From Tsukamurella sp. TY48 (GTDB taxonomy: Bacteria > Actinomycetota > Actinomycetes > Mycobacteriales > Mycobacteriaceae): 64,000 nt of DNA. The notes beneath the pieces were generated by a model that was given only the letters and a program-made list of their open reading frames with translations, was not told the DNA's origin and searched no databases. A program made the position numbers and the translations under genes. Below, piece by piece: positions 1-14,416 of the stretch. Location of the stretch: the NCBI RefSeq assembly GCF_019656655.1, contig NZ_BPMV01000002.1:868001-932000 (forward strand), given 5' to 3'. Numbering within the stretch: the first letter of the stretch is position 1; each line of letters begins with the position of its first letter.

Positions 1-755
1 GTGACCCGCGGGTCGCCGGTGCCCACCAGCTCGACGTTGGTGAGCGAGAGGCCGGCGTTGTGATCTGCGCCGGACCCGAGGATGCTGATGCGGTTGTTGG
101 CGAACTTGCACGCGGTGACGTAGTTCTGAATGCACTTCGTGGTGATGCCCACCCCGAAGTTGTTGATGTCGGAGTTGATGAAACTGGTGCCGCCGGTGTT
201 CTCCTCCATCACCACACCGCGTTGGCCGTGGAAGCGCGGCGCGGTCTCGGCGTTGTGCTCTCCGCGGAGGGTCACCGCATCGAAGGAGCAGCGGAACGAA
301 TTCGCGAGCTGCACCGCTGTCGCCTTCACGCCGGTCAGGTGGAAACCCATGCGGGAGAAGGCCACGCGGTGCCTGTCGCGGAGCGTGATGAGCGTGCCCT
401 CGCCGTCGTACACCACCGTGCTGAGGTCGGCACCGGCACCGATGATCGTGGTGAAATCGGGGAGGTCGGGAAAGCGGGTCACGCGGTAAGCGCCCGGCGG
501 CACGTAGATGGGGGCTTTGCCCGCGGCTGCGCGGACCGCCGCATCGAAGGCGGCGGTGGCATCGGCCTTCCCGTCCCCGACCGCCCCGTAGGAGGCGATG
601 CTGATCCGGCCGTCGGGCCCGGGGTCGACGGGGGTCGGGGGCTCGGCGGACGAGCGACAGGCGGCGGCGGTCGTGGCGGCCGCACCAACCCCCAGGCCCA
701 AGAGGAGGCGTCGGCTCAGAACTCCTTCGCGTCCTTCGGCCTCGTCCTCACCCAC
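1..755 (-). CDS. Right-handed beta-helix (pectate-lyase-like) Tat lipoprotein, 3' end cut by window
   Basis: Partial: the gene starts at a GTG at 755 and runs off the left edge. The N-terminus has a twin-arginine motif (SRRLLLGLG), a hydrophobic stretch and a lipobox-like AAAC, so it is probably exported by Tat and lipid-anchored. It continues with SIASYGAVGDGKADATAAF, the usual opening of Pectate_lyase_3 / parallel beta-helix proteins, followed by repeated short strand-turn units (residues about 50-250). This fold often binds or cleaves polysaccharides. Its start overlaps the stop of the upstream hydrolase gene by 8 bp, making it the last gene visible in the polysaccharide operon. A role in trimming or modifying the secreted glycan is inferred from context; the substrate is unknown. 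Confidence 0.75.
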   Translation of the reverse strand, partial: MGEDEAEGREGVLSRRLLLGLGVGAAATTAAACRSSAEPPTPVDPGPDGRISIASYGAVGDGKADATAAFDAAVRAAAGKAPIYVPPGAYRVTRFPDLPDFTTIIGAGADLSTVVYDGEGTLITLRDRHRVAFSRMGFHLTGVKATAVQLANSFRCSFDAVTLRGEHNAETAPRFHGQRGVVMEENTGGTSFINSDINNFGVGITTKCIQNYVTACKFANNRISILGSGADHNAGLSLTNVELVGTGDPRV

Positions 756-2505
756 GATCGCTCCCGACGGTCCCCCGGTCGCTGCACCACTGCAGCACCG
801 TTTCCGCGACCGCCGCGCGGACATCGGCGTGGTAGGCGGGGTGATCGCCGAATTCGGTGGATACGATGTCGATTCGCGGGGCGGGACTGCGCCGGTTCAG
901 GCTCCGGAGGCCCTCCCCACCGCGCTGTCCGGTGAACCACTCGGCGTCCGGCGGCGCCAGGACCACCGTGGTGTGCACATCAGCGTCCGCCAGCGGGCGC
1001 AGGAGGACCTCCGGCACCTGGGTGATTCCCGCGATACCGAGGAGGCGCCAGGCCGGGTACGGAAGCCGGGACTGCAGCAGGGCCTTCACCCGCCCGCGGA
1101 ACGAGCGTTGGAAGGCGGGATCGGACCGCGGCACCCCCTGCGCGTCCGGGCCATCGGCATTGCGCAGCGCGCGTTTGGTGCGCCACGACCAGATCACGGG
1201 GTTGACGAGAACCGCTGCGTCCAAACGGGATTCCCGCCCGAGATGCGCCGTCAGCCAGGAACCCGAGCACACGCCGACCGCGGCCAGTCCCGCCGAGTCC
1301 GGATCGGCGGCGGCCGCGGCGGTATCGGCGTCCTCGCGTGCCTCCTCCGAGTAGCCGTGCGCGCGTTCTCCGCGGAGCACCACCCCGGACTCCCCCGCGC
1401 CCCGGCGATCGAAACGCACCGCCACCACACCGGTTCCGGCGACTCTGCGTGCCAAGCGCACCCACTCACGGTTCGGGCCGTGGTGGGTGTCATTGGCCGT
1501 CGCGAAGAACAGCACGCCGGGCGTCGCGTCCCCTGCCGATTCCGATGCGTGCCCTGGGGGTGTCGTCCGAATGCTGAACAGTGAATGGGGACCGAGGTAT
1601 TCGATGCTCTCGGTCACCTCGCCGCCCGCCGGGTCACGCAGGCGCGCGGTCCGGCGGATCGGTGGGTCGACGGGGACCTCCGGACCGGTGGCGGCGGTAT
1701 CGAGCCAGTCGGTGATCGCGTCGATGGCGTCGTCCGGGATGCGCACGAGGTAGTCGGGGGGCTGGACGTACTCGGCCATGTGCTCGACGTCGAGGCGGTC
1801 CGCGTCGACCGCCGTCGCGAAGGCCTCGACTTTGCGGTCGCCGCCTCCCGGCCGGGTCGCCACCAGCCATCGGCCACCGGTGCCGACCCTCTCCGGATCC
1901 AGGCGCAGCCCGGACAGGGCCGCGGCCGCGGTCTCCGACAACGTGGTCCCGATGAGCGGCACGGAGCCGGACACCGATCGGTCGTCTGCGCCGACCGTCA
2001 TCAGGTACAGGGCCCGTTGCTCGCGGAGGAAGGCCCGCCCGGAGGAGACCGGATCCCACAGTACGACCGGCCCCGTCTCGTGTCCCTCGGTCAGCGCGCG
2101 GGCGGCCATCAGGCAACCGGCCCGGAGCCCGACGACGGCGGGCGGCCCGGCGTTCAGCTCGCGCAGGTAGGCCAAGCCCGTACGACAGCTCGCCGCCCAC
2201 TGCTCGACGGCGTCGTCACCGTCTTCGGAATGCGCGGAATCCCCGGTACCGAGGTAATCGATACGGAGGACGGCGAGCCCCCGGTCGGCCAGTTGTGCGG
2301 CGAGCCTCCGCATTCCACGGGTCGCATCGAACTGCTCCTTCGCGAGCGAAGGGAGCAGCAGCACCGATCCCCGGGCGCGGCCCGAGGCGGGCAGATGGAG
2401 CACACCGAAGACCGCATCCGGATCCGTTCCCAGGTAGGTGTGCACCTCGCGGTGCGAGACGGGGCCAGCGGCGGCACGATCGTCGGTGCGCTGCTCCTCG
2501 GTCAC
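748..2505 (-). CDS. Protein with two tandem alpha/beta-hydrolase domains, polysaccharide-cluster associated
   Basis: About 585 residues in two alpha/beta-hydrolase halves. The first (to about residue 270) has the strand-turn order VLLLPSLAKEQFD, LRIDYLGTGDS and GLRAG, where Arg sits at the usual nucleophile position (about 128). The second (about 300-570) has FFATANDTHHGPNREW, RFDRRGAGES and GVCSG, with Cys (about 412) at the nucleophile position, and a late GDHPAYH that could supply the His. Similar hydrolases occur beside exosortase/exopolysaccharide loci. I prefer the GTG at 2505 because AAGGAG lies 8 nt upstream; a GTG at 2514 would instead overlap the wzz-like stop by 4 bp. Possible jobs are deacylation or thioester hydrolysis in the pathway, but the substrate is unknown. 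Confidence 0.7.
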   Translation of the reverse strand: MTEEQRTDDRAAAGPVSHREVHTYLGTDPDAVFGVLHLPASGRARGSVLLLPSLAKEQFDATRGMRRLAAQLADRGLAVLRIDYLGTGDSAHSEDGDDAVEQWAASCRTGLAYLRELNAGPPAVVGLRAGCLMAARALTEGHETGPVVLWDPVSSGRAFLREQRALYLMTVGADDRSVSGSVPLIGTTLSETAAAALSGLRLDPERVGTGGRWLVATRPGGGDRKVEAFATAVDADRLDVEHMAEYVQPPDYLVRIPDDAIDAITDWLDTAATGPEVPVDPPIRRTARLRDPAGGEVTESIEYLGPHSLFSIRTTPPGHASESAGDATPGVLFFATANDTHHGPNREWVRLARRVAGTGVVAVRFDRRGAGESGVVLRGERAHGYSEEAREDADTAAAAADPDSAGLAAVGVCSGSWLTAHLGRESRLDAAVLVNPVIWSWRTKRALRNADGPDAQGVPRSDPAFQRSFRGRVKALLQSRLPYPAWRLLGIAGITQVPEVLLRPLADADVHTTVVLAPPDAEWFTGQRGGEGLRSLNRRSPAPRIDIVSTEFGDHPAYHADVRAAVAETVLQWCSDRGTVGSDRG

Positions 2506-2510
2506 CTCCG

Positions 2511-3806
2511 TCACTCCTTGGTTCCGATCGGAAGCCGCTGCCACCAGGGGTTCGACTTCGCCGCGACGACGGTGTGCCCGGCCCGGGAGGGCTCGTTCAT
2601 CCCGAGGGCGCGGCGGTACCCGTCCGGCGATCGCGTGCCCAGGCGCGCCACCACCAGGCGCACCCTCTCGTCCAACCGCGCCGGGGATTCCGCCGGCACG
2701 CCGCCGAGGATCACGTAGTCGAAACCCGCGCCGAGCGTGCGCACCACATCGTGCGCGCGTGGTGACAGGAGGCGATCGGACACCGTCGAATCGGCTGCGT
2801 CCCCGGATCGAGCCCCGGACGGGAGCACCGCCACCGTGCCCGCCTCCGGCGCCAGGGTCCGGGAAACGCTCTGCGCGCCGTCGACGCCCGCGGCCAACGC
2901 AGCGCGCAGGCTCGGCTCCGCTCCGCCCGACGCGTCACCCGCCGACGCCGAGGCGGCGGAGGCGGGTCCCACCGCACGGCAGTCGATCAGCAGCACAGCG
3001 GAATCGGTGTCGGCCAGATCCTCGGCGAGGGTCTGCGCCATCGGCCAGGCGTCACCGTCGACCGCCGACACCAGAATCGACACACCGGTCCCCGCCGAGG
3101 CGGCACCGGCGGCCGCGACGACGGTATCGCGCACCGCGACGCCGTTCTCGGCGCGCACGACCGGGACGCCGAGGTCGTCGCCCAGTTCGCCGGCCGTCGC
3201 GACGCGCGGACGAAGCCTGATCAGGACGAAGGCCGCGGCGCACCCCAGGAGGACACCGACCGCGAGACCCGCGGCGCCGTACTTCGACACCGGGGCAACC
3301 GATGCGACGGCCCCGGATCCGTCCGTCACGGGGAGCAGCCGCACCCACGGCGGCAACCCGGGCCTCGGGAGTTCGAGTTCGGACACCTCGCGAGCCAGTT
3401 GGCGTGCGGTCTCCCCCGCCAGCCCCTGCGCGATCACGTCGGACGGGTGGGTCGCCGTGAACTGCAGCAACAACGTCCCCGGGGCGAAGGTCACCTTCAC
3501 CTGGGCGGCGATCTCCTCCGGACTCATCGTCAGCTGCAGCGCTTTGGCGACCTCGGCGGTGATCTTCGGGGAGGTGCCGAGCTCGGCGTAGGTGGCCATC
3601 CGGGCCTGGGCGGCCTGGACCGAGTTGTACATGTCGCCGCCCGAAGTGCCGGAGTTGTTCACCACCACGTAGGACTGCGCCGTCGCGGTGTACACGAGGG
3701 GCCTGGACTGCGCGTACCCGACGCCGAGGACCGTTCCGGCGACCGCGCAGATCAGGACGAGCCACCACCCTCGCCGCACGAACTGGGTGACGTCACGGAG
3801 CGTCAC
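2511..3806 (-). CDS. Wzz-type polysaccharide chain-length protein with degenerate kinase-like domain
   Basis: 431 residues. A membrane segment (WWLVLICAVAGTVLGVGYA) near residue 15 opens a Wzz domain with a periplasmic-type stretch (YTATAQSYVVVNNSGTSG; PEEIAAQVKVTFAPGTLLL). A second membrane segment (AAGLAVGVLLGCAAAFVLI) is followed by a cytoplasmic Rossmann-like half. Actinobacterial relatives often fuse Wzz to a tyrosine-kinase-like ATPase. Here VLLIDCRA resembles the Walker A' strand, but no GxxxxGK[ST] P-loop is visible, so ATP use is doubtful. The GTG start (3806) overlaps the polymerase stop as TAGTG. Probable role: setting chain length or assisting export together with the Wzy-like and Wzx-like proteins of the same operon. 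Confidence 0.75.
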   Translation of the reverse strand: MTLRDVTQFVRRGWWLVLICAVAGTVLGVGYAQSRPLVYTATAQSYVVVNNSGTSGGDMYNSVQAAQARMATYAELGTSPKITAEVAKALQLTMSPEEIAAQVKVTFAPGTLLLQFTATHPSDVIAQGLAGETARQLAREVSELELPRPGLPPWVRLLPVTDGSGAVASVAPVSKYGAAGLAVGVLLGCAAAFVLIRLRPRVATAGELGDDLGVPVVRAENGVAVRDTVVAAAGAASAGTGVSILVSAVDGDAWPMAQTLAEDLADTDSAVLLIDCRAVGPASAASASAGDASGGAEPSLRAALAAGVDGAQSVSRTLAPEAGTVAVLPSGARSGDAADSTVSDRLLSPRAHDVVRTLGAGFDYVILGGVPAESPARLDERVRLVVARLGTRSPDGYRRALGMNEPSRAGHTVVAAKSNPWWQRLPIGTKE

Positions 3807-5287
3807 TATGGGATTCCTTTCGGTACGGCCGCAAGAACCGGAGCGGCGACTCCGGGGCCGGGGTTCGACGGCGGACTCCCGCATTCGGACCGCATGCCTG
3901 CCTCGCCCCCACTGGCCTCGGCGTGCGCACCCCGTGCGCGCTGGCGATCTTGCGCACCCAGGATACGGATGAACCATACGACTGCAAAGACCGCGGTGGC
4001 GAGCACACACTGCTGCAGTCCCTTCCCCGCGACCTCCGAAATGCCCAGCGCGCCGCGCTCGAACAGGGCGGGCAGTGCGACGAAGACCACCCCCATGGTG
4101 AGCACCGGGACGGATCGTCCCCGCAGGCACCGGGATACCGCGCACACGGCCAGCAGCACGAGGATCGATTCCACGAGGACACCCGACGTTCCGCCGATCC
4201 GGATCCCCTCGTTGATGTGCCCTTCCGCCAGCGAGACCTGCACGCCCGACATGTCGACGGAGCTGGCGCGCACCCGCTCCGCCCAGTCCGGCCCGGCGAG
4301 CTTCTTGTCGACACCGAGCTGCGCGGGAATCAGGTTCAGGGGCATCCGGAGCAGGACATCGGAGATATCGAGATAGCCGGGCCCCCGGTAGAAGGTGTTG
4401 TCGGTGGCGGCCTCGAACAGGTCGAACCGCCGGATCAGCGGCAGGAGCGGCCCCCACGCGGGCGGATACGGCGCATCGATGCCCGAGGTCAGGTGCGCGG
4501 TCGTCGCGCCGACCTTGAGGCCCTGGAGCGCGCCGAAGACGCCCACCGCACCGATCCCGCCGACCGCGAGCAGTACGGCGCGCATCTTCGTGAATCCGGT
4601 GAGGAGCAGGCGCACCGTGACCGCCATCAGGGCACCCATGAAGGGGGTCTTCGACGACTGCACCACCCCCCACGCGAACTCGCCCCCCACCAGGACGGCG
4701 ATCGCGACGGCGTTCCACCGTGGCGAATCCAGTCGCAGGTAGAGGATGAGGGCCGCGGCGCCGATGGCTCCCATCCCGGTGAAGATGGACAGGTAGGGAT
4801 TGGCTGCGGCGACCTCACCGGCGCGACTCACGGTGCCGGTGAGGTACGCGAAACCCCTGGCCGCCAGTCCCACGCACCACAGCACGACGAAGGTGGCGAT
4901 CACGGCGGCCGATTGCTTCGGCAGGTCCGCGTCGGGCCGCCGGTCCGGCGGTTGGAGGCGTTGGAACAGGACGAAGGCGGCGACGCAGGCAACGTAGATC
5001 CAGAGCCCCGAGGTGACCGGCGGGAGCACCTGGGCGATGCCGCGGTCGTATCCCGCGTGGAAGAGCCGCGTATCGGCGATGTTGTCGCCGAACGACGGTG
5101 TCGGCGTGGCCACCAGCAGCAGGACCGGGCGCGCGATGAACGAGATCGTCCAGTACGCCGATTGGATCAGCAGCAGCACCCGCGGGGCGCCGCGCCCCGC
5201 CGCAGCGACCAGGGCCAGCGCGATCAGGGGGATCGCGGTCTGCACGATGCTGCCCCACCCCGGGGTGACCTCAGCCCAGGGCGGCAT
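3806..5287 (-). CDS. Polytopic membrane protein, probable Wzy-type polysaccharide polymerase
   Basis: About 493 residues with ten or more hydrophobic segments (for example TAIPLIALALVAAAG, IYVACVAAFVLFQ, AAVIATFVVLWCVGLAA) and a large hydrophilic loop near residues 270-350 (RRFDLFEAATDNTFYRGPGY and LAEGHINEGIRIGG). This layout is typical of O-antigen or exopolysaccharide polymerases, whose sequences diverge too far for a motif call. The position between a glycosyltransferase and the Wzz-like gene supports it. The ATG at 5287 overlaps the upstream stop by 17 bp; a GTG at 5245 is an alternative start. The alternative function would be another polytopic glycan enzyme such as an O-antigen ligase. 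Confidence 0.65.
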   Translation of the reverse strand: MPPWAEVTPGWGSIVQTAIPLIALALVAAAGRGAPRVLLLIQSAYWTISFIARPVLLLVATPTPSFGDNIADTRLFHAGYDRGIAQVLPPVTSGLWIYVACVAAFVLFQRLQPPDRRPDADLPKQSAAVIATFVVLWCVGLAARGFAYLTGTVSRAGEVAAANPYLSIFTGMGAIGAAALILYLRLDSPRWNAVAIAVLVGGEFAWGVVQSSKTPFMGALMAVTVRLLLTGFTKMRAVLLAVGGIGAVGVFGALQGLKVGATTAHLTSGIDAPYPPAWGPLLPLIRRFDLFEAATDNTFYRGPGYLDISDVLLRMPLNLIPAQLGVDKKLAGPDWAERVRASSVDMSGVQVSLAEGHINEGIRIGGTSGVLVESILVLLAVCAVSRCLRGRSVPVLTMGVVFVALPALFERGALGISEVAGKGLQQCVLATAVFAVVWFIRILGAQDRQRARGAHAEASGGEAGMRSECGSPPSNPGPGVAAPVLAAVPKGIP

Positions 5288-6275
5288 GGATCTGTTCCGC
5301 CCGATCGCGATAGGTGTGGCCGCCCTCGACGATTCTGCGGTGGCCACGCGCGGCGACCGCGGCGGCCTCGTCGGGAGCTGCGGCGCAGCGACGCAGGATC
5401 TCGGCGAGTTCCTCGTGGCTGTCGAAGAGGTAGGCCTCCCGGCCGTCGTCGAACAGCGCCTCGTGCTCGACGGTGCGCTCCCCCACGACGAGTCCGGCGG
5501 CCGCGGGGACCTCGAAGGTCCGGCAGGTGTGGGTGTCGCGGTTATCGGAGTTGAGGAGCACGAGGTTGGCGCCGATCGTGGCGATCGCGGCCGAGAGTTC
5601 CTCGCCGTACTGCGGGCCGGCGATCCGGGCGCCACTGGTCCTGGCTCCGAGATTCCGCCGCCAGCCGGGGCCCGCCAGGTAGAACCGGTCACCCAGTTCG
5701 CCCGCGAGTTCGATCAGGAATTCGGTGCGGTCGGGCCGCATCGCGCCGATGAATCCCGCGTCGTACCGGACGGGGCCGCGCCGTGCCACGGGGCGGTGCC
5801 AGGCGGGGTCGTAGGCGCTGAAGACGTGGATCACCCGGGCCACGCCGCGGGCGTCCAGTTCGGGCACGTTGTGCGCCTTGGTGGTGACCACCGCGTCCCA
5901 CTCGGCCTCCCGTTCGAGGTAGGCCGGCGTGGTGTTGTACGGATTCGTCACATCGTCCGCGCTGTAGTGCACCTTGACCGGCACCGGCAGGGACAGGAGC
6001 CGGGCCTGGTCGAGATGCACCGTCTTGTAGCAGAACAGGAGGTCGGGGCGCAGGGCGGCAACGCAATCCGCCAGTTCGCGGTGCACCCGGTCGACGGTGG
6101 CCGGCGAGCGCTCGCCGGTGCGTTTGGCGTACCACCACGCGGGCGTGCCGCGCGTCGGCACGGTCACGGCGGTGGTGTCGACGACGACGACCTCATGGCC
6201 CGCGGCCCGGAAGCCGTCGGCGAGGGAACGGGCATTGCTGCCGTACCAGTTGTCGCCCGCGAAGAGGATTCTCAT
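5271..6275 (-). CDS. CgeB-like GT-B glycosyltransferase
   Basis: 334 residues. The opening MRILFAGDNWYGSNARSLADGF is the first Rossmann strand and loop of a GT-B enzyme. The middle has SADDVTNPYNTTPAYLE and VVTTKAHNVPELDARG, as in CgeB / DUF3880-type transferases. The C-terminal half has GFIGAMRPDRTEFLIEL and the donor-site region NSDNRDTHTCRTFEVPAAAG, followed by GERTVEHEALFDDG. It probably adds one sugar to the lipid-linked repeat unit in the cytoplasm. The ATG start overlaps the flippase stop as ATGA. The sugar donor cannot be read from the sequence. Confidence 0.8.
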   Translation of the reverse strand: MRILFAGDNWYGSNARSLADGFRAAGHEVVVVDTTAVTVPTRGTPAWWYAKRTGERSPATVDRVHRELADCVAALRPDLLFCYKTVHLDQARLLSLPVPVKVHYSADDVTNPYNTTPAYLEREAEWDAVVTTKAHNVPELDARGVARVIHVFSAYDPAWHRPVARRGPVRYDAGFIGAMRPDRTEFLIELAGELGDRFYLAGPGWRRNLGARTSGARIAGPQYGEELSAAIATIGANLVLLNSDNRDTHTCRTFEVPAAAGLVVGERTVEHEALFDDGREAYLFDSHEELAEILRRCAAAPDEAAAVAARGHRRIVEGGHTYRDRAEQIHAALG

Positions 6276-7513
6276 ACCGGTGTCTCCTCCGCAAGGGTCG
6301 GCGCGACTCCTCGACGGCGCAGTACCTCCGCGCGGACGAGATAGAAGGTGGCCGCGGCGGTCTCCGCGAGCGCGATGCCGACGACGAGCGTCATCGGTGC
6401 GTGGGTCTGGAAGGCGACGCCGAGCGTGATGAAGGCGACCACTGCACCGGTCGCCGCACCGGCCACCACGCCGATCTTGTCGCTGAGCACCGGCAGGACC
6501 GCGGTCGCGACGAAGGAGGCCACCGCCATCCCCGGCAGCGACCATGCCCCGACCTGGAGCAGGGGTACCGCGTCGATGAACTCGGCCCCGAACAGGATCG
6601 GAACGATCCACGGCGCCAGCACCGTCAGCATCAGGGCGGCGAGCGCGCCGAGTCCGGCCACCACCAACACCATGCGCCGGACCACTCCCCAGAACTCGGC
6701 GCCGATGCGTTTGCGATCGGCCATCCGCGGCAGCAGGGTCCAGCCGACCGCGTCGAGCAACGAACCGGTCGCCTGCACCGGCCGGTCCGAGGCGCTGAAG
6801 AGGCCGATCGCCTGCCGCGGCAGTGCACCGGCGAAGAGGGCCGCAGCTCCCTGCTCGTACGAGTTCTCGAGCATCCGGGCCAGCAGCACCGGAGCCCCGA
6901 GCCGATACAGGTCGCCGAGTTCGCGGGGGCGCCCCGGCGGGCCCAGTTCGCGCCACGCCCAGACCCACGACCAGCACACCGGCACCAAAGACGAGGCGAT
7001 CATGCACAGCACCGCCACGTGTGCGGTGGGCCGGATCGGTAGCAGCGCCACGAGCAGGAGCAGGTACAGCGCGCGCCCCACGGACTGCTGCACCAGGATC
7101 ACACCGAATCGCTTCATGCCCAGCTGAACCCAGTCCTCTCCGGCGGCGCTGATCGCGCCGCCGAACAGCCCGAGCGTGGCGATGTTGAGCAGGTCGGATG
7201 TGGAGAACAGATGCGTCGCCGCGCAGAGTCCGCCGAGGAGCGCCACCATCGTGCCGCGCATCACGCCGTAGGCGCCGCGCAGCTCACTGAGCCCGGGGTC
7301 GCCGATCCGGGCGGCGAGGAAGGCGGTGATGCCCTGGTCGGTGACGAGCGCACCGAGGAAGAAGGTCGACAGCGCCACTGTCAGAAGGCCCATCCCGTAC
7401 GGGCCCAGCAACCGGGCGCACAGCGGGAGCGTGATGAGGGTGATGAGGTACTGGCCGTACTTCCCGAACGAGACGAGCGCGACGTCGCGCATCACGCCCA
7501 CTGCGCCCTTCAT
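6272..7513 (-). CDS. Wzx-like polysaccharide flippase (MOP superfamily)
   Basis: 413 residues with about 12 hydrophobic segments. The start reads VALVSFGKYGQYLITLITLPLCARLLGPYG in short overlapping pieces, the usual first helix of MOP/Wzx flippases (residues about 10-40, with the LLGPYGMG turn). Later parts include LYRLGAPVLLARMLENSYEQG and IVPILFGAEFIDAVPLLQ, also typical of the family. It would flip undecaprenyl-linked repeat units across the membrane for the Wzy-like polymerase encoded two genes downstream. Its start overlaps the preceding glycosyltransferase stop as ATGA, and its stop overlaps the next gene's start, so translation is probably coupled. Confidence 0.82.
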   Translation of the reverse strand: MKGAVGVMRDVALVSFGKYGQYLITLITLPLCARLLGPYGMGLLTVALSTFFLGALVTDQGITAFLAARIGDPGLSELRGAYGVMRGTMVALLGGLCAATHLFSTSDLLNIATLGLFGGAISAAGEDWVQLGMKRFGVILVQQSVGRALYLLLLVALLPIRPTAHVAVLCMIASSLVPVCWSWVWAWRELGPPGRPRELGDLYRLGAPVLLARMLENSYEQGAAALFAGALPRQAIGLFSASDRPVQATGSLLDAVGWTLLPRMADRKRIGAEFWGVVRRMVLVVAGLGALAALMLTVLAPWIVPILFGAEFIDAVPLLQVGAWSLPGMAVASFVATAVLPVLSDKIGVVAGAATGAVVAFITLGVAFQTHAPMTLVVGIALAETAAATFYLVRAEVLRRRGVAPTLAEETPV

Positions 7514-8652
7514 CGGGGCCGCCGTCCGTCGAGCGTCCGGTGGATCAGATGCGCCGCCTGCTCCGCGGACGCATCGATGCCGAAGTCCTCGGCGCGCGCC
7601 GCGGCTCTGTCGGCGAGCCGGGTCCGCAGGTCCCGGTCGTCGATCAGCCGGTCGATCGCCGCGGCCAGCAGCACAGGATCACCGGTCGGGACGAGAACCC
7701 CGTCGACACCGTCGTCGATGATCTCGGTGGGGCCTCCGCTCGCCGCGGCGATCACCGCGCAGTGGGCCGCCATCGCCTCGACGACCACCTGGCCGAAGGG
7801 CTCGGCGAGGCGAGAGAAGTGAATCACCACATCGGCGGCGGCGGCCTCGGCGAGCGGCTCGGAGACATTGCCCACGAAGGCCACGCGCTCGCCGAGTCCC
7901 AGCTCGGCAGTCCGCCGGCGCAGCTGATCGGCGTACTCGTGCTCGCCGAAGAGCGTGCCGCCGACGAATCGGACGGCACTCTCGGTACGCGTCCTCGCGA
8001 GGGCCTCGAGCACGAGGTCCTGTCCCTTCCACGGCGCCAAGCGACCGAGCATCAGCACGCGCGCTTCGTCGGGTGCGCGCTGCGGCGCACCGCCCGGCAC
8101 GGAGGCCAGGTCGACGCCGGGGTAGACGACCGCGGCCGGCCGGCCGCCGGTCCACAGGGTGTCGCGGGTGGTGCGGCTGTTCGCGATGAATCCCCGGGCG
8201 ACGCCGCGGCCCAGGGCTCGCAGGATGAGGGCGACGGGACCGAAGTAGTCGGGGCTGATGCGATCGTGCACGTGCCAGATCAGCGGGATCCCGGCGCGGC
8301 GGGCAGCGACCGTTCCCATCAACAGCGCTTTGGTCGACTCGGCGAGCACGGCCTCGGCGCCCGCTGCCCGCAGGACGCCGCCGATGCGCCATCCGGCCCG
8401 CACCATCCGCGCCGCACCGGAGATCCAGCGCAACCGGGATCCGGCGATCGACACGGATGAGCTCGCGAATCCTGTGTCGACCACAGTCGCCTCGACGCCC
8501 GCATCCGCCAGGATCTGTTGCAGGGGGCCTGCTTCGGTGAGCACCGCGAGCGGCTCGATCCCGTGCTGCGGGAACCGCCGGGCCATGCGGGCCCAGGCGA
8601 GTTCGGCGCCCGACGGTGCCGCGGAGTGCGAGAGCAACGCCACCTTCGTCAT
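7510..8652 (-). CDS. GT4-family glycosyltransferase
   Basis: 380 residues, GT-B fold. The N-terminal half shows LLSHSAAPSGAELAWARM, IWHVHDRIS and GFIANSRTTRDTLW. The C-terminal half has VYPGVDLASVPGG, VLMLGRLAPWKGQDLVLEA and RVAFVGNVSEPLAEAAA. The E-x7-E donor-binding region reads SRLAEPFGQVVVEAMAAHCAV. These are the classic GT4 (Glyco_transf_1) motifs. It probably extends the repeat unit on the cytoplasmic face. It starts with an ATGA overlap on its upstream neighbour and has the same coupling downstream. Specificity is unknown. Confidence 0.88.
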   Translation of the reverse strand: MTKVALLSHSAAPSGAELAWARMARRFPQHGIEPLAVLTEAGPLQQILADAGVEATVVDTGFASSSVSIAGSRLRWISGAARMVRAGWRIGGVLRAAGAEAVLAESTKALLMGTVAARRAGIPLIWHVHDRISPDYFGPVALILRALGRGVARGFIANSRTTRDTLWTGGRPAAVVYPGVDLASVPGGAPQRAPDEARVLMLGRLAPWKGQDLVLEALARTRTESAVRFVGGTLFGEHEYADQLRRRTAELGLGERVAFVGNVSEPLAEAAAADVVIHFSRLAEPFGQVVVEAMAAHCAVIAAASGGPTEIIDDGVDGVLVPTGDPVLLAAAIDRLIDDRDLRTRLADRAAARAEDFGIDASAEQAAHLIHRTLDGRRPR

Positions 8653-9725
8653 CGCACCAGGCTCCGGTACAGCTGCACGTGCCGGTCGGCGCAGCGCTGC
8701 CAGGTGAACTCCTCGGCATGCCGGCGGCAGGCGTCGACGTCCGGCCGGTCGCCCTCGAGCGCGCGCACCAGCCGATCCGCCAGCGCGCCCTCATCGAGCG
8801 CGGGTACCACCAGGTCCGGCGCCAGCCCGACCACCGAATCCGGAAGGCCTCCGACGTCGGTGACCACCGGCGCCCGTCCCGCGGCGAGGGATTCGAGCGC
8901 GACCAGGCCGAAACCCTCGAGCGATCGGGTGGGGACCGCGGTCACCGTGGCGGCGCCGTACGCGGCTGCGAGTTCGGCGTCGGAGACCGCGCCGTGCAGC
9001 CGGACCGAGTCGCTGAGCCGCAGGTCGCTCACGAGCCGCGCGAGCTCCGCGCCCTGCGAACCCGTGCCGACGATGTCGAGCCGCGCGTCGGGCAGGGCGG
9101 CCAGGACCGCGGGCCAGGACCGGATCAACACGTCGATTCCCATGCGCCGTTCCAAGCGGCGCACAGTCAGCACGCGGGGACGGCCGTCCGGAATCGGAGT
9201 GGGGCGGAACCGATCCAGATCGGCGCCCGGTGGAATCACCACCACGTCCTCGGGCGGCACACCGTAGGTCGAGACCAGGACATCGGCGAAGTACTGCGAC
9301 AGTACGACGATCGCTGCAGAGCGCCGGTATCGAACCCACTCCCAGGCCCGTTTGGCCTGTACCGCAGCGGGGCTCGCACCGGAGGCGGCGCTCTCCAATG
9401 CCCACGGACCGTGGAAATGCGTCACCAGCGCCGAATGCCCGCGCGCCGGACCGTAGGGCGCGAAGTGCCGATCGAGCACATCGGCATCGCGGCCGGCCGA
9501 GCTGGCGCGCGCTCGCGTGAGGAGGTTGCCCTCCGGCGGGCCCCAGCTGCCGCCGCCGGGTTCGGCGTCACCGAAGGCGTCGGCGCTCACCTCGACGTCC
9601 GCGCGCGCCCGCAGGGCGGCGAAGAGGCTCGCGAAGTAGCTCGGGATGCCGCCACGACTGGTGCGCGGCCATTCGGCGCCCGCCATGTGCACCGTGAGCG
9701 GATCGGAATTGCTCGTACCGCTCAC
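8649..9725 (-). CDS. GT4-family glycosyltransferase
   Basis: 358 residues from a GTG at 9725 that overlaps the stop of the condensation-domain gene (GTGA). The N-terminal part has EWPRTSRGGIPSYFASLF and LVTHFHGPWALES. The C-terminal part has VIPPGADLDRFRP, VLTVRRLERRMGIDVLIRSW, DIVGTGSQGAELARLV and the donor motif VPTRSLEGFGLVALESLA. It is a retaining GT4-type sugar transferase by motif. It is the first transferase downstream of the acyl- or aminoacyl-transferase-like gene, so both products may act on the same lipid-linked intermediate. Confidence 0.88.
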   Translation of the reverse strand: MSGTSNSDPLTVHMAGAEWPRTSRGGIPSYFASLFAALRARADVEVSADAFGDAEPGGGSWGPPEGNLLTRARASSAGRDADVLDRHFAPYGPARGHSALVTHFHGPWALESAASGASPAAVQAKRAWEWVRYRRSAAIVVLSQYFADVLVSTYGVPPEDVVVIPPGADLDRFRPTPIPDGRPRVLTVRRLERRMGIDVLIRSWPAVLAALPDARLDIVGTGSQGAELARLVSDLRLSDSVRLHGAVSDAELAAAYGAATVTAVPTRSLEGFGLVALESLAAGRAPVVTDVGGLPDSVVGLAPDLVVPALDEGALADRLVRALEGDRPDVDACRRHAEEFTWQRCADRHVQLYRSLVR

Positions 9726-11515
9726 GATGTGGCCTTCGCACCCGGACCGGTGAACCGCAGCCGGACCTCGTTGGGGCAGGCCGCGCGCAGCACGTCGGGG
9801 AGATCGTCGGGTGCATCGGCGCTCACCGTGACCACGGCCCGGACCGGCGGGCCCACGGTGATCCGGACATCGTCGACGTGGTCCCCGCGCAGGATGTGCC
9901 GTATCTCGCCGAGTTCGACGAATCCGCCGTGGACGCGCACCCGCTCGGCTCCGGTCCCGCGGTACACGCACCCCGATTCGGTGAGCTCCACCCGATAGTC
10001 GGTCGGCACCGCACCGTGCTCGGTGAGCAGGGTGACCCAGCCCGCGCTGCCGAACAGCGCCGGATCACCGAGATCGGTGGTCACCGTCATCCCGTACACG
10101 CCGTTCTGTCCGCCCGCACGCGCCAGCTCGACGGCGTCGGTCGGAGCACCCCACACCGGTTCTGCCGCATCGGCGTTCGGCGCGAGCTCGAGCGTCACGC
10201 CGGGCGTGCCGGCGAGCGCGCGGTGCGCCTGCGCCTCGGCCGGTGTCAGGGCACTGATCTCGCTGAGCGGGCGATCCGGTGCGCCGGCCGTGGCATCGAG
10301 CCACCGGGCGAGCCGGTCGGCATGCGTCCGCGCCCGCACCGGCGAATACAACTGCGGGTTGAACTCCGTGAACAGGATGAGGTCGCCCGCTCCGGTCTGC
10401 GTGATGACCACCGAGACGTCGCTGACCGGACCGTAGCCGTGGACCCGGGTGTTCCACTTCTCGTTCTCGGGGTCCGGCCGCAGGAAGGGGATCACGTTCA
10501 CGGTGGGCCCGTACAGCCTGCCCGCGCGGATCGCGCCCGGCATCGATTGGAACAGCTCTCGAGTGTCGACGCGGCCGCGGCCGGCACGCGTGATCCCCGC
10601 CGAGACCTGATTCGCGAGTTCGGCGCCGGTCGCCGTCTCGCTCACGTCCAGCCGGATCGGCACCACGTTGGTCATCGTGACCGCGGCGGCGCGCTCGCGC
10701 TGGTTCAGCCGGTTCACCATCACCGAGCCGATGATCGACCGCCGGTTGCCGGTGTAGCGCGCGCAGTACGCGCCGACCAGCCCGAGGAGGTGGTGCGGCC
10801 ACTGCCGCCCGGACGGAGTGATGTGGAGATCGTGACGAAAGGTGACGGGATCGGGAGCCATCGCCGCCGTCGCGGAGGTGAGTGACAGCTGCGGGTTCGC
10901 CCAGCCCTCGGTGGACAGCAGGGACGACCACATCTCCAGGTCCACCGGGAAGGGTTCGCGGTTCGCGAGCAACTCGTCGACCTCGACGAACTCGAAATGC
11001 TCCGGTTCGCGTCCCGCCAGCAGGGCCACATAGACCTTGGCGAGGCGATTGCGGAACAGGGCGGCGGCGTAGCCGTCGAGGACGGCGTGGTCACCGAACA
11101 TGGCGTATCCCACCCGGCCGTCCACCTCGACCGTCCATTGTTCGCCCAGCGCAGTACCGTCCAGCAGGTAGGGCTTCCGGAACCGCTCGTTCCCCCATGT
11201 CAGGAATTCGCCCTCGGACGCGAAGGTGAGGTGTCCGCGAAAGGGCAACGGGCCGTAGTCGACCTGTAGGTTCGCGCCCTCGGACAGGATGCGCAGGCCC
11301 AGGCTGCGGCACTCGTCGGTGGTGCGGTGCAGCGCCTCGGTGAACACCGCCAGATCGGCGCCCGCGGGCAGCAGCGACGAGGTGCCGATCGTCATCAGCG
11401 AGGTACCCGGTGCGTCATTGCGGCCCCGCACGAAATTCATCTGTTCCGGGAGCAGCCTCACCGCGCCAGAATAGCCGACGGCGGGCGCATCGCCGGGGTC
11501 GAATCGCGAGGTCAC
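9722..11515 (-). CDS. Free-standing NRPS-type condensation protein with vestigial adenylation C-subdomain
   Basis: 597 residues. Residues about 15-430 form a chloramphenicol-acetyltransferase / condensation-like pair of lobes, with the active-site motif as DHAVLDG (H143, D147, G148) and later VMVNRLNQRERAA and PTVNVIPFLRP. After a linker of the C-to-A type (ISALTPAEAQAHRAL), only about 100 residues separate it from RVRVHGGFVELGEI (525-538), which strongly resembles the A8 motif of an adenylation-domain C-terminal subdomain. The A core with its ATP and amino-acid pockets is absent. It starts GTGA-overlapped with a glycosyltransferase, two genes from a carrier protein and three from an amino acid:carrier ligase. 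I infer transfer of a carrier-bound aminoacyl (or acyl) group to a sugar. Confidence 0.75.
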   Translation of the reverse strand: MTSRFDPGDAPAVGYSGAVRLLPEQMNFVRGRNDAPGTSLMTIGTSSLLPAGADLAVFTEALHRTTDECRSLGLRILSEGANLQVDYGPLPFRGHLTFASEGEFLTWGNERFRKPYLLDGTALGEQWTVEVDGRVGYAMFGDHAVLDGYAAALFRNRLAKVYVALLAGREPEHFEFVEVDELLANREPFPVDLEMWSSLLSTEGWANPQLSLTSATAAMAPDPVTFRHDLHITPSGRQWPHHLLGLVGAYCARYTGNRRSIIGSVMVNRLNQRERAAAVTMTNVVPIRLDVSETATGAELANQVSAGITRAGRGRVDTRELFQSMPGAIRAGRLYGPTVNVIPFLRPDPENEKWNTRVHGYGPVSDVSVVITQTGAGDLILFTEFNPQLYSPVRARTHADRLARWLDATAGAPDRPLSEISALTPAEAQAHRALAGTPGVTLELAPNADAAEPVWGAPTDAVELARAGGQNGVYGMTVTTDLGDPALFGSAGWVTLLTEHGAVPTDYRVELTESGCVYRGTGAERVRVHGGFVELGEIRHILRGDHVDDVRITVGPPVRAVVTVSADAPDDLPDVLRAACPNEVRLRFTGPGAKATS

Positions 11516-12627
11516 AGCGACTCCACCACGGTTCGCATCTGCTGGCGGAACCGCTTAGGGCAGAAGCTTTCCGCCCTGGCGCGGATCACCTGCGGATCGA
11601 ACGACTCGTCGCGGAATCCCGACATCGCGGCGGCGAATCCGGCGACGACGCCGTCGTCGTCGCTCGGTGGGACCAGCACGCCGGTCACGCCGTCGATCAC
11701 CGAATCGAGCACGCCGCCCTCACCGAGCGCGATGACCGGGGTGCCGCACGCCATGGCCTCCACGGGCACGATCCCGAAGTCCTCGACTCCCGGCATCAGC
11801 ACCGCCCGCGCGCGCTGCATGAGCTGCACCATGCGTGCATCGTCGACCCGCCCCACGAACGTGGTCTCGGGGCCGGCGAATTCGCGGCACCGTTGCTCCC
11901 ACCGGCCCTCGCCCGCCACGATGAGGCGGACCCCGGCGGCCCGCGCCGCGCGTACTGCAAGGTCGGCGCGCTTGTAGGGCACCAGCCGGCCCGCCATGAG
12001 GAAGTAGTCCTCCCGCTCCCCCGCGGGCCCGGTACTGAATCGGGTCACGTCGACGGGCGGATGGACGACCTCGGCCTCGCGGCCCCACCACTGTTCGATC
12101 CGGCGGGCCACCACACTCGAGTTCGCCACGATCCGGGTGAAGCTCGGCGCCGCGGCTCTCTCGACGGCGCGGGCCTGCTTCGCCAGCAGGGCCAGCGCCA
12201 GGCGGCCGGCCGGCGAATTCGCCTCACCCGCCCGGAGGGTCGAGTCCCAGGCCCAGCGCGCGGGCGAGTGCACATAGCCGACGGTCGGCACGCCCACCGT
12301 CGGCGCGGCGGCTGCTGCCAAGGCGAAGTGACTGATCACCACGGCATCGACATCGCCGACGTCGACCCCGCGAAGAGCAGCGGGGGCCAGGGGCATCAGC
12401 GGCGCGTGCGAGCGGAGGCCGCCGGCCCGGTACGCCCGGTACAACCGATCGAGCCGCGTCGCGCGAAGCCGGCCCGCGAGCTCGACCGGCACGATCGCGG
12501 GATCGGCGAACGGGACGTACACGGGCGCATCGGGCCACTCCCGGAGCAACTCCTCGATGACGGACTCCGCGCCCCCCATCTCCGTCCACCGCTCGTGGAC
12601 GATCGCGATCCGCGATCCCGAACTCAC
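11512..12627 (-). CDS. GT4-family glycosyltransferase
   Basis: 371 residues. RIAIVHERWTEMGGAESVIEEL is the glycine-rich first strand seen in WbaZ/WcaI-like GT4 enzymes (residues 6-27). It continues with VGYVHSPARWAWDS, ARSFTRIVANSS-like text (FTRIVANSSVVARRIEQWW), VVHPPVDVTRFS, LMAGRLVPYKRADLAV and the donor-site segment PGVEDFGIVPVEAMACGTPV. HSPARWAWD resembles mannosyltransferases that use GDP-mannose, but I would not assign a donor from that alone. Its GTG start overlaps the carrier-protein stop (GTGA), so the two are probably made at a fixed ratio. Confidence 0.88.
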   Translation of the reverse strand: MSSGSRIAIVHERWTEMGGAESVIEELLREWPDAPVYVPFADPAIVPVELAGRLRATRLDRLYRAYRAGGLRSHAPLMPLAPAALRGVDVGDVDAVVISHFALAAAAAPTVGVPTVGYVHSPARWAWDSTLRAGEANSPAGRLALALLAKQARAVERAAAPSFTRIVANSSVVARRIEQWWGREAEVVHPPVDVTRFSTGPAGEREDYFLMAGRLVPYKRADLAVRAARAAGVRLIVAGEGRWEQRCREFAGPETTFVGRVDDARMVQLMQRARAVLMPGVEDFGIVPVEAMACGTPVIALGEGGVLDSVIDGVTGVLVPPSDDDGVVAGFAAAMSGFRDESFDPQVIRARAESFCPKRFRQQMRTVVESL

Positions 12628-12860
12628 GCTCGGAGCCCGTCGATCATCTCGGTCAGCGCGCCGAGCGATCCGAAGGTCTCCTTCTTGAGTAGCCGATCAG
12701 GGATCTCGATATCGAACTCGTCCTCGATGGCGACCATGACGGCCACGCTGGCGTGCGAGGTCATTCCGAGTGCGTAGAGATCGTCGTCCGTAGCGATGGA
12801 GTTCGCATCCACGGCGAGCTTGCCGTATTTGCCGAGAATGGAGCGCAGCGTCTGTTCCAC
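12624..12860 (-). CDS. Small carrier protein (phosphopantetheine-dependent), partner of aa:CP ligase
   Basis: 78 residues, the size of a free-standing acyl carrier protein. The attachment serine is most likely Ser35 in ALGMTSHASVAVMVAIEDEF; the usual D-S-L is replaced by T-S-H, like the G-[LM]-T-S type found in carrier proteins served by atypical seryl-tRNA-synthetase homologues. The third helix reads FDIEIPDRLLKKETFGSL. Start GTG at 12860 has a purine-rich AGAGGGGG about 10 nt upstream. It is the first gene of the coupled run that ends at the beta-helix gene. It should be converted to the holo form by a phosphopantetheinyl transferase not present in the window. Confidence 0.85.
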   Translation of the reverse strand: MEQTLRSILGKYGKLAVDANSIATDDDLYALGMTSHASVAVMVAIEDEFDIEIPDRLLKKETFGSLGALTEMIDGLRA

Positions 12861-13059
12861 GGCGCACGACCCCCTCTGATCGATTGTGCCGACAGTGAAG
12901 TATTGCTACATGGGTTGCCCATCCGGGCGACCAGTCATGTCAAGCTACACCAGCGTCACGAAGATACGCGATGCGATCGCAACGAGTCGCCGCGGTGTGC
13001 GCACGGGCCCTCCGTCGGTGACCACAACCCCTGCACGGACGCGCACGTCGGACCGGTGA
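12861..13059 (-). promoter_or_regulatory. 199-bp gap before the carrier-protein/polysaccharide genes, probable promoter region
   Basis: This is the only sizeable gap in the minus-strand run between the amino acid:carrier ligase and the carrier-protein gene. It contains a perfect TTGACA on the minus strand (12938-12943), but I see no good -10 at 16-19 bp from it. A 13-bp dyad (ATGGG-TTG-CCCAT, 12910-12922) lies between the TTGACA and the gene and could be an operator. The region is noticeably less GC-rich near 12895-12945 than its surroundings. Whether transcription starts here or reads through from upstream is open. Confidence 0.35.
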
Positions 13060-13956
13060 TCACACCCACGACGGGGTCACACCGTGCGTGCGCACCATCG
13101 CCAGGACGATCCGTTCGATCCCGAAGCCCACGCACGAGCTGTGCGCCGGCGCGCCGTCGGACTGGAGGATGTCGAACCTCTGTCCGAAGTGATCCTGGTG
13201 GTTGTTGCAGGAGGCGACGGCGGTCGCGGGGTTGTCCGGCCCGTACAGCGGTATCACCAGTTCCGTCTTCAACGCCTGGTCGAGTTGGTTGGCCTTGAGC
13301 ATCCTTCCGGCCCGACCGAAGAACGGATCGTTCGCCGTTTCGGGCCGCACATCCAGTCCGAGATCGCTCAGCACCGCGGTGGCGCGGCGGATCCACTCGT
13401 CGGCGTGCTCCACGGCCTGCGCGGCATCGCCGACCCGCACGTAGTCGTGCGCGCGGAAGGCCTGCATGCGGAGGGGGTCGATCGCGGGCTCGCGGCGGAA
13501 GCAGTACCCGTAGACGTCCAACAGGGCGCCCTCGGACGGCAGCGTCCCCGTGAGCGTCGGATAGGCCGGCTGACACGCTGCCGAGACCAGAGCGACCCCG
13601 GACGGGCTCAGGTGCCGCTCCCACCCCAAGCCCTCCTCCCGGTCCGCCAGGAGGGCCCGGTGCTCGGGATCGCCGCCGTCGAAGGAGTGGACGCTGCCCG
13701 CGAGATCGGGGAACGAGGCGACGTAATCGGTCCGGTCGAGCGTCTCGCTGGGGAAGACCGGAGGAAACCGCAGGGTGCGGGGCCGGGTGGCGAAGGCCGC
13801 AGCGGCTTCGGTCGACACCCGCGCATCGATCTTCGCGACCACGGCTTCGAACTGCTCACTTCGGCCGTAGAGGCCGTCCATCCCGGTGGGGACGAGCCAG
13901 TCGTGCGCGATCAGGTCGTCGCGGAACCGGCGCCGCGCCTCGTCCAAGCTCGACAT
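13060..13956 (-). CDS. Amino acid:[carrier protein] ligase (atypical seryl-tRNA synthetase homologue)
   Basis: 298 residues, a class II aminoacyl-tRNA-synthetase catalytic core without the tRNA-binding coiled coil. Motif 2 is YCFRREPAIDPLRMQAF (151-167), with the DPLRMQAFR segment typical of this family; motif 3 is VGFGIERIVLAMVRTHG (276-292). Cys128 (ACQPAYPT) and Cys275 (SSCVGFG) match two zinc ligands described for the Bradyrhizobium glycine:CP ligase. The third ligand, Glu there, aligns roughly with Asp171 here. Family members adenylate a small amino acid (Gly or Ala) and load it on the phosphopantetheine arm of a small carrier protein rather than on tRNA. The matching carrier is the next gene downstream. 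The stop lies 199 bp before the carrier-protein start. Confidence 0.88.
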   Translation of the reverse strand: MSSLDEARRRFRDDLIAHDWLVPTGMDGLYGRSEQFEAVVAKIDARVSTEAAAAFATRPRTLRFPPVFPSETLDRTDYVASFPDLAGSVHSFDGGDPEHRALLADREEGLGWERHLSPSGVALVSAACQPAYPTLTGTLPSEGALLDVYGYCFRREPAIDPLRMQAFRAHDYVRVGDAAQAVEHADEWIRRATAVLSDLGLDVRPETANDPFFGRAGRMLKANQLDQALKTELVIPLYGPDNPATAVASCNNHQDHFGQRFDILQSDGAPAHSSCVGFGIERIVLAMVRTHGVTPSWV

Positions 13957-13966
13957 CGGGGGCCGG

Positions 13967-14416
13967 TTAGAAGACTGCCATCGCCACGATCAGGCCGAGG
14001 GCCACGTGGCAGGCGGCGATCACGCGGGCCTGCGGCAGGAAGACGTCCGCGTGCATGAGCTCGTCCAGGTCCACACCGGTCACCAGGTCCAACACCCGCA
14101 CACACACGATCTGCGCGATGATGCCCACCAGGCCGTAGATGAGCGCGTAGGTCACGCCCTCCACGAGGCGACCGCCCGCGGCGTAGATCGCCACCACGAT
14201 GATGAAGGCCATCGAGAGCATGCCCGCGGCGGTGATGTAGGTGGCATTGGGCTTGCCCGCCTTCACCAGCTCACGCAGCTTGCCCGGGGTCGACAGGTCG
14301 ACCGCGTAGAAGCCGACGACCATGAGGACGAGGCCCACGAGCGCGTACAGGCAGATCGCGCCGATACCGCGGCCGATCGTGTTCAGCTGCACATCGGCGA
14401 GGAGTGTCACGTTCAC
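13967..14416 (-). CDS. DUF350 membrane protein (YjfL-like)
   Basis: 149 residues with about four membrane segments, organised as two similar helical pairs (AICLYALVGLVLMVVGFYAVDL and YALIYGLVGIIAQIVCVRVLDL, each within one half). This is the DUF350 layout of E. coli YjfL. The GTG start overlaps the stop of the ATP-grasp gene (GTGA). DUF350 proteins are regularly encoded with a glutathionylspermidine-synthase-like ATP-grasp enzyme, as here; their function is not established. The next gene, 10 bp downstream, is the amino acid:carrier ligase. Confidence 0.82.
   Translation of the reverse strand: MNVTLLADVQLNTIGRGIGAICLYALVGLVLMVVGFYAVDLSTPGKLRELVKAGKPNATYITAAGMLSMAFIIVVAIYAAGGRLVEGVTYALIYGLVGIIAQIVCVRVLDLVTGVDLDELMHADVFLPQARVIAACHVALGLIVAMAVF

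Follow-up and report, generated by a model that had tools for sequence, protein, structure and literature searches.

In the DltABCD system of teichoic acid and the AlmEFG system of lipid A, an amino acid is activated, loaded onto a carrier protein (CP) and moved to a surface glycan, with an adenylation enzyme and transferases of other folds than those of the module described here. Mocibob and colleagues are said to have placed the Bradyrhizobium and Agrobacterium ligases in a predicted sugar-aminoacylation pathway in 2010. Here we describe a relative of these ligases in a 64,000-nucleotide stretch of Tsukamurella sp. TY48 (NZ_BPMV01000002.1, positions 868,001 to 932,000 of the forward strand; referred to as the window), taken from a 4.37 Mb genome in two contigs. 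In the window, genes for the ligase, its CP, a free-standing condensation-domain protein and a tandem alpha/beta-hydrolase (hydr2-hydr1) stand among genes for a surface polysaccharide.

A note added in proof of 2010 (PMC2922099) had already suggested, solely from neighbouring genes, that this ligase family serves to join an amino acid to a sugar of the cell surface. The general idea of an earlier, model-made note on this DNA (referred to as the original prediction), namely that an aminoacyl group is moved onto a lipid-linked glycan, is therefore not new. CP loading by relatives of the ligase has also been tested by others, as told in passages of PMC9437257 and PMC5370406. By curated models, the window ligase and CP belong to the same family as the Bradyrhizobium/Agrobacterium system, and the 2010 note names a redox enzyme, an uncharacterised open reading frame (ORF), a glycosidase and saccharide genes, which plausibly match the acyl-CoA dehydrogenase, DUF1839 and GH2-like genes seen with relatives of the window ligase. 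In PMC10318531, DUF1839 is described as a family of papain-like proteins that has a C(T/S)H triad and is tentatively linked to glycans of the cell wall; we infer that it is the uncharacterised ORF of the 2010 proposal. The window differs from that system in its free-standing condensation protein and its Wzx/Wzz operon, and in that no acyl-CoA dehydrogenase, DUF1839 or GH2-like gene was called at its locus.

The XrtA/PEP-CTERM exopolysaccharide set (TIGR03098, TIGR03099, an acyl carrier protein (ACP), TIGR03101 and TIGR03100) offers a second comparison, as it shares with the window an adenylating ligase, a CP, a hydr2/hydr1 pair with Arg and Cys elbows, and a place in polysaccharide loci. It differs in its AMP-binding ligase of the acyl-CoA-ligase type, its PLP decarboxylase and its separate hydr2 and hydr1, and the window proteins do not reach the TIGR cut-offs. 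No AMP-binding (ANL-fold) adenylation enzyme was matched among the operon genes scanned, which also sets the window apart from Dlt and Alm. No report of a ligase-CP-condensation-Wzx set was found in the open-licence literature (a weak absence), in keeping with the statement in the original prediction that no pathway of exactly this make-up had been described. What is new, as far as seen, is threefold: a condensation protein stands where relatives usually have other middle enzymes, the module is tied to one defined glycan operon, and it includes an XrtA-like Cys protein.

The reading that we favour, at a rough probability of 45% and on comparison of sequences, is that hydr2-hydr1 is the enzyme delivering the CP-borne group to the glycan, the condensation protein being an added step specific to Tsukamurella. 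The genes concerned, all on the minus strand, are as follows (our own gene calls set the starts in relatives and some of those in the window).

13060..13956, minus: amino acid:[carrier protein] ligase with a seryl-tRNA-synthetase-like class II core (NF005479, PDB 4h2w, invariant residues)
12624..12860, minus: CP with attachment Ser35 in LGMTS (NF005480)
11512..12627, minus: GT4-type glycosyltransferase (PF00534, 1.9e-26)
9722..11515, minus: free-standing condensation-domain protein with a C-terminal part of ~165 aa of uncertain origin (PF00668, DHAVLDG)
8649..9692, minus: GT4-type glycosyltransferase, start from our own gene call (PF00534, 5.8e-27 for the longer ORF)
7510..8652, minus: GT4-type glycosyltransferase (PF00534, 5.2e-35)
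6272..7513, minus: Wzx-type flippase (PF01943, 3.4e-14)
5271..6275, minus: glycosyltransferase of PF13524 type, marker of the linkage test (PF13524, 5.4e-29 for the longer ORF)
3806..5287, minus: Wzy candidate polymerase (~8 transmembrane segments; homologue in the same place in relatives)
2511..3806, minus: Wzz-type chain-length protein (PF02706, 1.9e-09 for the longer ORF)
748..2514, minus: tandem alpha/beta-hydrolase hydr2-hydr1 with Arg131 and with Cys416, Asp523 and His558 (TIGR03101 and TIGR03100, both below cut-off; AlphaFold2 model)
1..755, minus: C-terminal part of a beta-helix protein, secreted-looking by eye (PF12708, 2.7e-16)

The three genes on which the original prediction was built were each recovered above the cut-off of their family (NF005479, NF005480 and PF00668). 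The ligase (298 aa) scored 406.9 bits against NCBIfam NF005479, 'amino acid--[acyl-carrier-protein] ligase' (cut-off 357), and matched Bradyrhizobium ligase 1 (PDB 4h2w/3mey) at E 1.9e-62, while its Pfam PF00587 score of 29.2 bits fell marginally below the cut-off of 29.3. Residues C128, R154, E156, C275 and R282 were unchanged in 17/17 aligned ligases; we take C128, E156 and C275 to be the Cys-Glu-Cys zinc set, and R154 and R282 the arginines of class II motifs 2 and 3. Models of seryl-tRNA synthetase aligned with the ligase only from model position ~300 on, in their C-terminal part, indicating that the N-terminal tRNA arm is absent. Judged by these matches, the gene at 13060-13956(-) encodes an amino acid:[carrier protein] ligase reduced to the class II core, much as had been predicted. 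The 78-aa CP, whose predicted attachment site was found again in LGMTS with Ser35, scored 100.3 bits against NF005480 (cut-off 72) and was the sole match of its type in its genome at E <= 0.1. The window genes are intact, and omega versus the sister genome G010 ranged from 0.11 to 0.27 in 8/8 genes tested, being 0.12 for the ligase and 0.16 for the CP.

The linkage of the ligase to glycan genes, for which the original prediction had suggested a co-occurrence check, is real. Among 251 genomes of the family, the marker glycosyltransferase was found in 40, the ligase in 86 and both in 29 (Fisher p 8e-8), and with Tsukamurella left out the figure was 16 of 27 (Fisher p 0.0013); these p-values are descriptive, since the genomes are not independent. 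The 29 marker-ligase pairs comprised 23 within 12 kb, two at 21 kb and four on different contigs, and marker and ligase lay no more than 12 kb apart in six genera, Tsukamurella included; 11/40 genomes with the marker had no ligase match. In other genera, a run of GT-GT-Wzx-GT-Wzy-Wzz-hydr2/1 (GT, glycosyltransferase) stood beside, or within ~11 kb of, the ligase and CP (L155-L161, L167). This run was accompanied by the dehydrogenase, DUF1839 and GH2-like genes in L156-L161 and L167 (that of L159 being cut by the end of the stretch), and in L155 (genome G075) it came without these three and without a condensation gene. Run and cassette were 21 kb apart in L162-L165 (G229, G253) and on different contigs in G133. 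Both G075 and G016 carry the ligase, CP and hydr2-hydr1 with no condensation gene of the window type in their fetched loci, and DUF1839 had no match anywhere in these two genomes while being present in seven others tested alongside. The ligase, CP, hydr2-hydr1 and glycan genes are thus the recurring part, around a middle that varies.

A wider search with the ligase profile against named genomes gave at least 580 relatives among at least 593 matched stretches, and the best 80 loci were analysed, counting genes within up to 10 kb of the ligase with our own hidden Markov models (28/80 loci were shorter than 19 kb). As these 80 are the best of 580, near relatives are over-represented among them. 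The CP was found in 78, the acyl-CoA dehydrogenase in 71, DUF1839 in 58, hydr2-hydr1 in 57, the GH2-like gene in 52, AcpS in 33, a GT4 gene in 22, a sugar-phosphate transferase in 13 and the condensation gene in 3, these three being T. sputi, T. conjunctivitidis and T. asaccharolytica. The original prediction did not list hydr2-hydr1, a rival candidate for the transfer that occurs in 57 of the 80; the GT gene that separates the condensation gene from that of the CP was also absent from it, as was the beta-helix protein.

The halves of the protein encoded at 748-2514 scored 80.3 bits against TIGR03101 (1.6e-22; cut-off 202.75) and 67.3 bits against TIGR03100 (1.2e-18; cut-off 168.45), and by these scores are homologues, not members, of 'exosortase A-associated hydrolases' 2 and 1. 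Across 67 different hydr2-hydr1 proteins of at least 500 aa, the nucleophile site of the first half is Arg (Arg131) in 65, and in the second half Cys416 is kept in 67, His558 in 65 and Asp523 in 61. An AlphaFold2 model (predicted local distance difference test score (pLDDT) 87.2) places positions 131 and 416 between strand and helix, which would fit an elbow residue. The six proteins that exceeded the TIGR03100 cut-off (6/75 genomes searched) have that same G-x-C elbow, with GLC in hydr1 in 6/6, and LR was seen by eye in hydr2 of L194-L198; the pairing of Arg and Cys elbows is an observation of this analysis and not a published criterion. In L200 and L201, hydr2 (GLR), hydr1 and an ACP-like protein stand beside a TIGR03098 ligase, and L200 also has a TIGR03099 decarboxylase; the ACP-like protein was named by its sequence, a scan of L200 at E 1e-20 having given no family match for it. 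As hydrolase 1 has Cys and hydrolase 2 has Arg in these XrtA-type loci (L200:4405-11784, L201), calling either family a 'hydrolase' may be misleading.

With 50.9 bits against PF00668 (cut-off 30.6), the protein at 9722-11515(-) is, by this match, a free-standing condensation-domain protein. The motif reads DHAVLDG in the window copy and DHVGIDG in G010, so that the first His is Asp in both, with His143, Asp147 and Gly148 kept in the window copy, while HHxxxDG was found in 9/9 other Tsukamurella copies read in frame (excluding the miscalled G006 and G015). One alignment includes a wrong-frame row (L056:7421-8800) and serves only for the residues kept, not for counts. By sequence, the solved relatives of the protein are ObiF1, CDA synthetase I, 1l5a (E 6.3e-10) and EntF, with MxcG also among the best relatives. 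In a tree, the condensation proteins (8 rows) clustered apart (100/99) from 10 condensation (C) domain rows of nonribosomal peptide synthetases (NRPS), two of which are identical. The C-terminal part had no Pfam match and no counterpart among 69 frames of NRPS loci; its best PDB match was a prolyl-CP ligase at E 0.015, which came second at E 0.62 when a profile was used, and its reading as an adenylation-domain remnant, attractive by eye, did not reach significance. Omega versus G010 was 0.27 for the whole protein, 0.21 for the core and 0.37 for the C-terminal part. An AlphaFold model from four sequences reached a pLDDT of 47, and no fold search was run on it.

This type of condensation protein appears restricted to Tsukamurella. 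A ligase match was present in 15/16 genomes of the genus and the condensation protein in 13/16 (E 1.8e-28 or better), its gene lying no more than 5 kb from a ligase in 13/13. When 397 genomes of the order were searched with a condensation profile at E 1e-25, scoring four candidates in each, only four genomes, all Tsukamurella, exceeded 500 bits; all other listed matches had at most 132.5 bits, the next best (132 bits) lying in a 1578-aa frame, and all but one were in frames longer than 1200 aa. A 481-aa free-standing frame with a condensation match of 95 bits was noted in another family of the order (G555:C2:992747-993925), not near the Tsukamurella type. A single-protein search of genome contigs for close relatives gave 32 pattern-matching stretches, none a relative, and the 15 stretches (L155-L169) fetched from relatives that carry the ligase or the glycan operon showed no condensation gene of the window type. 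Given also its presence in only 3 of the best 80 named loci, the transfer role that the original prediction gave to the condensation protein is not supported as a general one.

Of the 11 condensation-bearing Tsukamurella genomes other than the window genome and G010, seven had their locus read, and AcpS (phosphopantetheinyl transferase) and a sugar-phosphate transferase were present in 7/7 and a methyltransferase in 6/7; the window and G010 carry a rearranged version with none of these three at the locus. DUF1839 was found in 1/16 Tsukamurella genomes, G007, which had no condensation match. This Tsukamurella-labelled genome carries a Williamsia/Gordonia-type cassette at L049, on contig 313 (6.4 kb) of ~890 contigs, and transfer and contamination are both possible. 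In G014 (L060:8900-10364), the CP and ligase look broken or frameshifted, with the ligase match in three pieces; as the assembly is only 83% complete, this may be sequencing error.

In the pathway that these data suggest, the ligase would adenylate a small amino acid (the Bradyrhizobium and Agrobacterium relatives charge Gly or Ala) and load it onto the phosphopantetheine of the CP, a function of its family that the window member probably shares. The group might then pass to Cys416 of hydr2-hydr1, which would transfer it to a sugar within the lipid-linked repeat unit. In Tsukamurella only, the condensation protein may N-acylate or extend the CP-bound aminoacyl group, or itself form the bond to an amino sugar, a role possibly filled in other genera by DUF1839 with the dehydrogenase and the GH2-like protein. 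Going by their families, Wzx would flip the unit, the Wzy candidate polymerise it and Wzz set the chain length. Several observations weigh against delivery by hydr2-hydr1. A Cys alpha/beta-hydrolase can also be a plain thioesterase or hydrolase, and the fold search returned only general esterase/lipase neighbours. Both halves stay below the TIGR cut-offs, and hydr2-hydr1 was not found in 23/80 named loci, being present in 42/52 of those not shorter than 19 kb. Finally, GT4 genes were seen in only 22 of these loci (other GT types were uncounted), so that in some cases the acceptor may be something other than a glycan.

The condensation protein could instead be the final transferase, taking the group directly from the CP and attaching it to the lipid-linked glycan at an amine or hydroxyl, with hydr2-hydr1 left only to clear misloaded CP. 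This would suit the stand-alone amide synthase among its solved relatives, since 1l5a is presumably VibH, which uses a soluble amine; the likeness lies in the stand-alone C domain, VibH acting in a siderophore pathway on a small polyamine acceptor. It would also suit the retained motif residues, the purifying selection on the gene, its constant closeness to a ligase, and the absence of DUF1839, the bond-forming candidate elsewhere, from all 13 condensation-bearing genomes. Against it stand the top solved matches, which are C domains whose usual acceptors are CP-bound, the change of the first motif His to Asp in the window and G010, and the restriction to Tsukamurella, with no such gene in the fetched stretches of relatives that have the same glycan operon; we regard this role as rather doubtful. 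The acceptor preference of those matches points to another possibility: ObiF1, CDA, EntF and MxcG hold C domains that join an acyl donor to a CP-bound aminoacyl acceptor, and the condensation protein might likewise take aminoacyl-CP as acceptor and yield N-acyl-aminoacyl-CP for later transfer to the glycan. The single CP of the window type in the genome fits this, but the operon genes scanned include neither an acyl donor enzyme nor a second CP, and we hold it to be improbable.

That the ligase, CP and condensation protein serve to produce a small metabolite derived from an amino acid, the place of their genes in a glycan operon being due to chance, finds some footing in the distant likeness of the CP to the cispentacin protein AmcB (33.3 bits, below the cut-off of 80) and in the 58/80 ligase loci with no GT4 gene within 10 kb. 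Set against the closeness of ligase and one glycan GT in six genera, and against the overlap of the CP and condensation genes with the GT gene between them, such a metabolite seems distinctly improbable. It is more improbable still that the module is a non-working, decaying leftover in the window strain: the genome holds a second ligase (L006) that lacks a CP, and the G014 ligase is in pieces, but the window genes are intact and their omega values low throughout. A broader form of the favoured reading, speculative and on balance unlikely, would have two unrelated activators, the seryl-tRNA-synthetase-like ligase and the XrtA-type AMP-binding ligase, feed one Arg/Cys hydr2-hydr1 machine for glycan transfer. 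In Tsukamurella, the condensation protein would then have displaced DUF1839, the dehydrogenase and the GH2-like protein, and peptide-synthetase chemistry would therefore decorate a lipid-linked glycan.

The second ligase (L006:10183-11163, on the same contig) is 53% identical to the window ligase and lies where other Tsukamurella carry the full cluster. There the CP, condensation and GT4 genes are missing, one for a sugar-phosphate transferase still adjoins the ligase gene, and the copy looks like a remnant after the rest of the cluster was lost. In a tree of 108 different ligases of at least 260 aa (shorter and identical ones left out), this second copy falls inside the Tsukamurella clade, and the window ligase pairs with that of G075 (99/89); a simple orthology of the window ligase with other Tsukamurella ligases was accordingly set aside. 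Transfer of the window ligase is a lead only, as the tree tool flagged long branches where it joins G075. The context labels of the tree are gene calls, which overlooked the condensation gene in L056 and L105.

As for the remaining operon, which holds four glycosyltransferases, Wzx and Wzz are confirmed by family match, as in a Wzx/Wzy-type surface polysaccharide operon. The glycan surroundings of the original prediction thus stood as regards the GTs, Wzx (PF01943) and Wzz (PF02706), while its Wzy is a candidate only, with no Pfam or NCBIfam match and ~8 transmembrane segments by a simple hydropathy count. From the CP gene down to the hydrolase gene, which ends at 748, and the gene after it, neighbours overlap by 1 to 17 bases, the sole exception being a 29-base gap after the condensation gene; the ligase gene lies upstream and ends 199 bases from the CP gene. 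The GT4 gene at 11512-12627 shares 4 nt with the CP gene on one side and 4 nt with the condensation gene on the other; ligase loci in other genera (L047, L052, L079) hold homologues 55-61% identical to it, and the best relatives of the GT4 protein of 8649-9692 are 53-64% identical. The beta-helix gene crosses the window edge and extends ~530 bases past the window start. No initiating sugar-phosphate transferase was called in window positions 1-24000 or in the preceding 12 kb. Genes for a DUF350 membrane protein and a glutathionylspermidine-synthase-like (GSP_synth) protein lie at 13967-15609 on the same strand, separated by a 10-base gap upstream of the ligase gene; among the clustered loci they occur only in the window and G010, and for this reason were left out of the module. 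A defence-system reading was dropped, PADLOC giving no match in five proteins.

The differing later-step enzymes of the relatives make a long-suspected pathway from amino acid to glycan testable, and the Tsukamurella operon limits the likely acceptor to a single defined glycan while offering a natural swap of middle enzymes on the same glycan operon. A Cys-type protein is, moreover, common to the window module and the XrtA exopolysaccharide systems. If the proposed role of this protein is true, one set of experiments could explain both the ligase pathway and the XrtA set.

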